DNA from: a virus
DNA: 44,160 bases
Strand: one strand, 5' to 3'
IMG/VR virus record: IMGVR_UViG_3300030060_006061
Span: 1-44,160 of that record
The notes beneath the pieces were generated by a model. That model was not told the DNA's origin and did not search any database. It worked only from the letters and a program-made list of their open reading frames with translations. The position numbers were made by a program, and so were the translations under genes. Positions within the stretch are counted from its first letter, which is position 1. Each line of letters begins with the position of its first letter. Of this stretch, positions 13,346 through 19,436 are shown piece by piece.

Positions 13346-13495
13346 ACGAAAGGTGATGTCCTTAAACATCAATATTTGCTCCCGCTAACCAAGACCTATG
13401 GGAGGGTAAATTACGTCTTTCATATCCAGTAGTGAGGGATTACTGGAAATAAGTTTCGCTCTACCCTAGAGCCCTACTTAACAAACGTCTTACTA
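13346..13495 (+). promoter_or_regulatory. Structured psbA 5' leader, PhotoRC-like candidate
   Basis: Four hairpins can be drawn in order: GATGT/ACATC (13355-13370), CTCCC/GGGAG (13379-13404), CCAGTA/TACTGG (13426-13446) and CTCTA/TAGAG (13459-13471). AGGGTA (13403-13408) is also complementary to TACCCT (13462-13467), which would make a pseudoknot. Named RNA motifs PhotoRC-I and PhotoRC-II lie in this position before psbA in marine cyanobacteria and cyanophages; membership here is inferred from position and structure. No clear Shine-Dalgarno precedes the ATG. Confidence 0.6.
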
Positions 13496-18888: not shown

Positions 18889-18913
18889 AATGTAACAAGT
18901 TATACCATTCCAC

Positions 18914-18942
18914 TTGACTACATAGTTATGGTATGCTAACAT
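18914..18942 (+). promoter_or_regulatory. Sigma70-like promoter of the riboswitch unit
   Basis: TTGACT (18914-18919), 17 bases, TAACAT (18937-18942). The RNA would begin close to 18949, right at the first glutamine riboswitch-like element, so the leader is essentially made of the two aptamers. Confidence 0.55.
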
Positions 18943-18949
18943 ACCTTTA

Positions 18950-18990
18950 CGTTCATCCCACTAGGGACGCAAGTAAGCCGACACGGAACG
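18950..18990 (+). promoter_or_regulatory. Glutamine-II (Downstream-peptide) riboswitch-like aptamer 1
   Basis: CGTTC (18950-18954) pairs with GAACG (18986-18990) as the closing stem. After an A, TCCC and GGGA form the second stem, followed by the conserved-looking GGGACGCAAGT and a CCGACACG segment. This order matches the glnA/Downstream-peptide class of marine cyanobacteria, which binds L-glutamine. The match is by eye. Confidence 0.8.
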
Positions 18991-18994
18991 GACT

Positions 18995-19036
18995 CGTTCA
19001 TCTTCTTTGAAGACGCAAATGTTGACCGAAGGAACG
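18995..19036 (+). promoter_or_regulatory. Glutamine-II (Downstream-peptide) riboswitch-like aptamer 2
   Basis: It is a second copy four bases after the first: CGTTC (18995-18999) closes with GAACG (19032-19036). TCTTC/GAAGA replaces the stem sequence of copy 1 with kept pairing, then GACGCAAATG and CCGAAG. Compensatory stem changes between the copies support a real RNA fold. A GGAGG Shine-Dalgarno follows at 19056-19060. Confidence 0.82.
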
Positions 19037-19068
19037 GCATTTAATTGCCCACTACGGAGGAAAAACCA

Positions 19069-19212
19069 ATGGCAAAAGTCACTTATCGCGGAGTCGAATA
19101 TGACTCTGAAGAATACAACACTAAAGTTGTTGCAGAAGCAGCACAGCGTGAAAGACACGATCTAATGTATCGCGGTCTAAAGGTTAAAAGCAAGGCATCA
19201 CCTTGCAGCTAG
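19069..19212 (+). CDS. Downstream peptide, DUF4278-type
   Basis: The 47-residue peptide has two copies of the YRG signature, TYRGVEYDSEEYN at the start and LMYRGLKVK near the end, typical of the DUF4278 peptides found behind glutamine riboswitches in cyanobacteria. In freshwater cyanobacteria one related product, IF17 (gifB), inactivates glutamine synthetase; whether this phage peptide does so is unknown. The rest is helical and charged. GGAGG lies eight bases before the ATG, and a terminator follows, so it is a stand-alone regulated unit. It is missed by a 60-residue ORF cutoff. Confidence 0.85.
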   Translation: MAKVTYRGVEYDSEEYNTKVVAEAAQRERHDLMYRGLKVKSKASPCS

Positions 19213-19218
19213 CAACAA

Positions 19219-19244
19219 AGGGGGGTTTACACCCCTCTTTTTTT
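19219..19244 (+). terminator. Intrinsic terminator of the riboswitch unit
   Basis: AGGGG at 19219 and CCCCT at 19232 form a GC-rich hairpin followed by a T-rich run to 19244. It isolates the downstream-peptide gene from thyX. Confidence 0.8.
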
Positions 19245-19248
19245 ATAC

Positions 19249-19259
19249 TATAATAAATA
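19249..19259 (+). promoter_or_regulatory. Combined -10 and late box
   Basis: TATAAT (19249-19254) shares bases with AATAAATA (19252-19259). It lies right behind the terminator and 16 bases before the ATG at 19275, so it should drive the small gene and thyX. Confidence 0.5.
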
Positions 19260-19274
19260 AAATGAAAAGTTTTC

Positions 19275-19436
19275 ATGGACAAAGGAAAATTAAAAGTCTT
19301 AGTCATGGCTCTTAAGGAGATTGTTGAAGAACTAGAGAGCGAAGTATATTCCGATGTGGATGCTTACAAATCTCCTGCGACTTTTTCATCTGCACCGATG
19401 AATTATGATGAGATGTTTGATGATGGTTCAGATTAA
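19275..19436 (+). CDS. Small acidic protein before thyX, unknown
   Basis: The 53-residue protein has a helical N-terminus (KLKVLVMALKEIVEELESEV) and an acidic tail (NYDEMFDDGSD). Its stop overlaps the thyX start as TAATG, so the two are coupled. It was too short for a 60-residue cutoff. The function is unknown. Confidence 0.6.
   Translation: MDKGKLKVLVMALKEIVEELESEVYSDVDAYKSPATFSSAPMNYDEMFDDGSD

Follow-up and report, generated by a model that had tools for sequence, protein, structure and literature searches.

Descriptions of glutamine aptamers and of tandem glnA RNAs date from 2010 (PMC2864571), and a survey of tandem riboswitches counts 157 glutamine doublets, which it treats as pseudo-cooperative (PMC9481103). 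glnA RNA has also been annotated in the cyanophages S-CREM1 (PMC9964418) and AG-345-P14 (PMC9004378), and a general report covers NtcA sites in cyanophages (PMC3037559). In the hosts, glutamine riboswitches precede and activate DUF4278 genes, and PMM1846 has an NtcA motif (PMC6316151). Tandem glutamine riboswitches, glnA riboswitches of cyanophages, and the host link to DUF4278 thus all have precedents in print. The accessible parts of the two cyanophage reports concern the same element in related phages; an inter-copy helix, a DUF4278 cassette, an NtcA box, and nested ORFs, as set out below, are not described there.

The leader studied here lies in a stretch of 44,160 nucleotides (the window, meaning the whole DNA that was analyzed) from a T4-like cyanophage with marine cyanobacteria as hosts, contained in an IMG/VR record of 74,643 bases. 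Near the cassette are a talC-like transaldolase ORF, thyX (Pfam Thy1), a phoH-like ORF, and a PhotoRC-II RNA, a setting like that of Kyanoviridae. The PhotoRC-II RNA (13366-13460, 80 bits) belongs to a cis-regulatory family of photosynthesis genes of cyanobacteria and cyanophages. The complete unit claimed in the earlier note is borne out on the + strand: a sigma-70-like promoter, TTGACT-17-TAACAT with a TG ahead of the -10 (18914-18942; -35 and -10 retained in relatives), is followed by the aptamers, a directly read Shine-Dalgarno (SD) GGAGG (19056-19060), a 47-aa peptide, and a computed intrinsic terminator with a 10-pair stem and then a U tract (19217-19240). A second promoter, TTTACA-17-TATAAT (11/12 consensus, 19226-19254), overlaps the terminator just 5' of a 53-aa ORF at 19275. 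P-TIM68 has the whole unit at 84% DNA identity, and it is also found in many other cyanophages and in hundreds of viral contigs.

The window contains two matches to CGTTCAY-N5..20-GACGCAA-N6..24-GGAACG (18950-18990 and 18995-19036, both + strand), and 100 dinucleotide shuffles contain none; the observation of two tandem glutamine-aptamer copies before a DUF4278 peptide is confirmed. Copy 1 consists of CGUUC (18950-18954), P2 (18956-18959/18964-18967), CGCAAGUA, within which lies the E-loop half AGUA (18972-18975), and GAACG (18986-18990). Copy 2 consists of CGUUC (18995-18999), P2' (19001-19005/19009-19013), the E-loop half GAA (19028-19030), and GAACG (19032-19036). When Rfam is run on the whole window, copy 1 (18947-18997) matches Glutamine-II (RF01704) at 30.1 bits (gathering score 33; E = 0.0013), and copy 2 (18993-19040) matches Glutamine-I (RF01739) at 31.3 bits (gathering score 35; E = 0.0057); limited to the stretch, the E-values are 1.1e-5 and 4.9e-5, respectively. 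The cross-class scores are 20.7 for copy 1 against RF01739 (gathering 35) and 13.9 for copy 2 against RF01704 (gathering 33). The earlier note was right to name the glnA/Downstream-peptide class, and right that the second stems differ yet pair, as P2 and P2' both do; the covariance models it pointed to do match, but both below gathering level. Because neither copy attains its gathering score, a gathering-level Rfam scan detects neither. In minimum-free-energy folding of single strands, the aptamer is not the minimum (z-scores of about -1.2 to +0.6).

With Glutamine-I (glnA RNA, RF01739; the gifB leader and L243, a single aptamer of type-I-like form found in a Cyanobiaceae genome), the locus shares P1 CGUUC/GAACG and the P2 hairpin, both present in the copies, as well as the GACGC core and AGUA/GAA halves around P3; the gifB leader also has a DUF4278 gene downstream. 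In L243, AGUA, P3, and GAA stand together in one aptamer, as in the RF01739 junction. In the window, by contrast, the E-loop halves are in separate copies, P3 runs between the copies, and each copy is sub-threshold in Rfam, such that the junction is found in neither copy and is complete in the composite only. Glutamine-II (Downstream-peptide RNA, RF01704), known from marine picocyanobacteria, likewise forms a short leader ahead of a small peptide of DUF4278 type. However, the RF01704 alignment of copy 1 has mismatched P2 pairs, so the type-II pseudoknot, whose P2 strand lies downstream of GGAACGG, would be poorly formed, and the host loci examined mostly have single aptamers. Since each copy falls short of its gathering score and of the one-aptamer junction, we would classify the element as a structural variant within the glutamine riboswitches rather than as an ordinary RF01739 or RF01704 member.

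The two copies are connected by a helix. In all aligned relatives, copy 1 ends in ...CGCAAGUA-X-GGAACG and copy 2 in ...CGCA-Y-RAAGGAACG, and the type-I junction halves are split, with AGUA in copy 1 and GAA in copy 2. X and Y form the strands of P3 (18976-18983 and 19020-19027, + strand), which covary in register only: across 36 distinct combinations, 5.75 of 8 positions pair, compared with 4.70±0.13 after shuffling, and neighboring registers give no comparable excess. Compensatory changes occur at several positions (ATTCGC/AACGAAT, GATCGC/AACGATT, GACGACGC/AACGCCGTC, GCCAACGC/AACGTTGAC). This covariation spans ~250 phage loci and holds for loci with compact P2 loops and for those with an ORF nested in a P2 loop, each on their own (5.64 vs 4.56±0.16 shuffled in the nested loci). 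The window has six standard pairs out of eight and two A/C mismatches, which are also found in most long-P3 relatives. For the composite structure, 93.8% of cells are paired in 64 compact relatives and 12 pairs have two-sided changes, with covariation of 0.228 against 0.095±0.006 when shuffled and 0.03-0.06 when slid; in copy 1 P2, two-sided changes affect 4/4 pairs (64 relatives). Given no structure, RNAalifold pairs CGUUC(1) with GAACG(2) and GAACG(1) with CGUUC(2). On this evidence the copies look like one strand-swapped two-site aptamer around a common P3, in which the inner site, without a full E-loop, may possibly not bind. The inter-copy helix and the split junction halves appear to be new. 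The tandem glycine riboswitch, which has two aptamers per leader with inter-aptamer contacts, is similar in its paired aptamers in contact, but each of its aptamers keeps a complete junction, whereas the phage strands appear swapped. Tandem pseudo-cooperative glutamine riboswitches (PMC2864571, PMC9481103) also have a pair of copies arranged in series within one leader; they were published as independent units, whereas the phage copies have a common covarying helix and half-sites.

Upstream of the leader, a putative NtcA box, GTAACAAGTTATAC (GTA-N8-TAC; 18892-18905, + strand), is read directly and from its fixed spacing in relatives. Specifically, among 213 relatives, 136 have GTA-N8-TAC at positions -52 to -66 relative to the aptamer-1 CGTTCA, against 0.9 expected from shuffles; in an earlier, smaller locus set, the same spacing was found in 74 of 105 (2.8 expected). 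The box is upstream of the segment covered by the earlier note (18914-19244) and absent from that note, and its constant spacing from the leader appears to be a new finding. An inverted repeat, GGTATG-CTAA-CATACC (18930-18945, + strand), overlaps the -10 region directly ahead of aptamer 1. The dyad is kept while its sequence varies among relatives, and arms of at least 6 just 5' of copy 1 are present in 89% of 213 relatives, compared with 5% of shuffles. The dyad would represent either a DNA-level element or, with transcription beginning farther 5', perhaps at a late-like ATA[AT]ATA motif, a 5' RNA hairpin.

According to one scan, the peptide is encoded in 451 viral stretches, and both copies are present in 239 of 263 distinct peptide-anchored loci. 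The window represents the ORF-free form, whereas in 163 of the 239 relatives the P2 loop of aptamer 1, aptamer 2, or both is filled by an ORF (copy 1/copy 2: compact/compact 76, compact/ORF 101, ORF/ORF 41, ORF/compact 21). In many phages, a small ORF, mostly of 49-69 aa, has CGUUCAUCC... just 5' of its start codon and, at its own end, the half formed by GGGACGCAA...GAAGGAACG; with aptamer halves at both of its ends, the ORF therefore fills the P2 loop. In aptamer-2-nested loci, the P2 stem involves the ORF 3' end and can take in start-codon bases (for example, UCCCAUG/CAUGGGA, UCUAU/AUAGA, and UCCUUA/UAAGGA). Selection on the nested ORFs is purifying (dN/dS 0.23 in copy 2 and 0.16 in copy 1). 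At some loci the ORF ends before the aptamer core and the core is still kept, which argues that the core is selected as RNA. Six loci with such early ends were noted (L113, L149, L169, L180, L213, and L231), and some of their stop codons, located in the P2 stem, pair with the start-codon region. No earlier description of ORFs nested in riboswitches was found in the literature open to search, and the ORFs in the P2 loops of relatives appear to be new; these variants are absent from the earlier note as well.

Two nested families, phrog_504 and phrog_6471, are likely distant relatives, based on sequence profiles (hhalign probability 89%, E = 2.6e-6). A nested ORF protein gives a small helical model (pLDDT 83), for which a fold search returned no significant match; the alignments used as input for structure prediction contained viral-contig rows only. 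The IMG/VR loci L481 and L486 are 100% identical over 500 downstream bases and 97.5% identical over 316 upstream bases, and the P2 loop of aptamer 2 has 4 nt in L481 and a whole ORF in L486. Since the P2 stem sequence differs as well, this pair suggests replacement by recombination. Another relative (L082) has an intermediate aptamer 2 P2 loop of about 59 nt without an ORF, perhaps a decayed nested gene.

The 47-aa peptide (19069-19209), MAKVTYRGVEY...YRGLKVKSKASPCS, whose gene is placed at 19069-19212 on the + strand, matches Pfam PF14105 at 26.0 bits (cut-off 25.3), in agreement with the DUF4278 assignment made before, and PHROG 5049; PF14105 scores 22.1 bits in a six-frame genome search. 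Among relatives its dN/dS is 0.19. No other Pfam or NCBIfam match was found for the 47 residues, and their predicted fold, a weak model (pLDDT 78), has no significant PDB match.

In the genus that includes G001 (a Prochlorococcus single-cell genome), a phage-like contig is the only place in 61 genomes where the pattern GACGCA...RAAGGAACG matches. A covariance model of the composite, which gives 124 bits on the window (itself in the training set), has one strong full-length match in 121 Cyanobiaceae genomes, on that same phage-like contig, and two weak matches of 71-72 nt. At this sampling, host recruitment of the whole design is thus rejected. The host aptamers that were examined are, with few exceptions, single. 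Phage-type cassettes also lie on contigs labeled Prochlorococcus single-cell genome (L109, contig C3 of G001), Rhodospirillaceae MAG (L108), and Dehalococcoidia MAG (L110); these contigs are probably infected cells or mis-binned phage.

The best explanation, to which we assign a probability of about two in three, is that this T4-like cyanophage locus serves as an expression cassette for nitrogen status, with a composite, strand-swapped glutamine sensor. Sequence and covariation provide its basis in the two copies, P2, P2', the inter-copy helix, the NtcA box, DUF4278, and the terminator. Transcription would start at the NtcA-box promoter, tuned by NtcA, and the leader would fold into one composite glutamine sensor in which two copies swap strands. 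Its outer type-I site would draw CGUUC(1), P2, and AGUA(1) from the first copy and GAA plus GAACG(2) from the second; its inner, circularly permuted site would comprise GAACG(1), CGUUC(2), P2', and GACGC(2); and the shared P3 would join them. Glutamine at both sites would stabilize the fold, hold the aptamer 2 3' strand, and alter how accessible the SD at 19056 is; the likeliest outcome is that more DUF4278 peptide is translated, in keeping with reports on the glutamine riboswitches of hosts. In aptamer-2-nested relatives, the folded sensor would block the translation start of the nested ORF. The choice of CGUUC-GAACG partners, glutamine binding, cooperativity, and the ON direction are what we infer in this reading. 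For the glutamine sensing step, we draw on the P1 strands and the GACGCA/GGAACGG core, which hardly change among 64 diverse relatives even as P2 and P3 covary; these conserved bases match the ligand-contacting bases in glutamine riboswitch crystal structures (PMC6698751). A separate expression platform was not found after copy 1, and that of copy 2 is weak: a candidate alternative hairpin touching the SD (predicted fold, 19026-19057, + strand; CCG 19026-19028/CGG 19055-19057, inner GGCA/UGCC) covaries weakly, and SD accessibility is 0.41 with the aptamer formed vs 0.42 with it blocked. Because this accessibility is the same with and without the aptamer, the direction of the switch is taken from the host literature only.

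The same leader could instead hold two independent side-by-side glutamine aptamers, each with its own P1, in a pseudo-cooperative tandem of the kind published as 157 doublets (PMC9481103), the inter-copy helix then being a loop-loop contact or part of the ligand-free fold. Each copy has CGUUC and GAACG, and since the P1 strands never vary, covariation is equally compatible with own pairing, including aptamers joined by kissing loops, and with strand swapping. Nevertheless, in every architecture the inter-copy helix shows in-register covariation, neither copy has both E-loop halves, and RNAalifold prefers the swapped pairing, which makes independent aptamers rather unlikely. The tandem copies of the earlier note are right, but a steeper response from two independent aptamers is an incomplete account, because the copies are interlocked through the common covarying P3. 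Another reading, in which the leader has lost glutamine sensing and persists as a relic or serves only as a structural 5' UTR for mRNA stability or ribosome loading, would fit the sub-gathering Rfam scores and the lack of a clear expression platform. We regard it as highly improbable in view of the near-invariant P1 and core alongside covarying P2 and P3, the match of invariant bases to crystal-structure ligand contacts (PMC6698751), and the core retained where nested ORFs end before it.

The ORFs in the P2 loops of relatives might simply be upstream genes that have pieces of aptamer on both sides, with no fold spanning the gene; a loop of 150-250 nt is costly, and in aptamer-1-nested loci, which have the same arrangement, the P2 strands give no significant covariation (5.31 vs 5.10±0.15). 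This is unlikely given that aptamer-2-nested P2 has 5.87 of 7 pairs vs 5.15±0.09 shuffled, in a register-specific manner, that P3 covaries inside nested loci, and that the 3' core is conserved past the stop codon, also where the ORF ends earlier. As for the peptide, a reading as a phage version of the glutamine synthetase inactivator IF17, in line with the adjustment of host glutamine synthetase that the earlier note named as one possibility, can point to the homology of DUF4278 to the IF17 N-terminus and to host PMM1846, proposed as an IF-like candidate (PMC6316151). However, the 47 residues match DUF4278 alone, with no IF7-like C-terminal inhibitory region; the DUF4278-like N-terminus is, according to the same review, dispensable for IF17 function and promotes stability; and neither a further Pfam or NCBIfam match nor a significant PDB match of the predicted fold was obtained. 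Direct inactivation of glutamine synthetase is therefore unsupported, the earlier inference is weak, and we consider an IF17-like role improbable.

Returning to the composite, strand-swapped sensor, its design would explain why gathering-level Rfam scans can miss such elements. If the reading is true, aptamers exchanging strands around a common helix would have built-in cooperativity, and there would be natural riboswitches carrying genes within their ligand-binding domain. As a tentative extension, to which we would give about one chance in three, the two-site riboswitch may act as a platform with genes in its hairpin loops: folding would pair the nested start codon with the gene end, closing it and opening DUF4278, and a finishing ribosome would unfold the sensor, forming a reciprocal translation-coupled nitrogen toggle atop NtcA. 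L481 and L486 offer a clean gene-in-sensor pair for competition between nested translation and ligand binding. Altogether, marine cyanophages would, if this is true, read host nitrogen status via both 2-oxoglutarate (NtcA) and glutamine.
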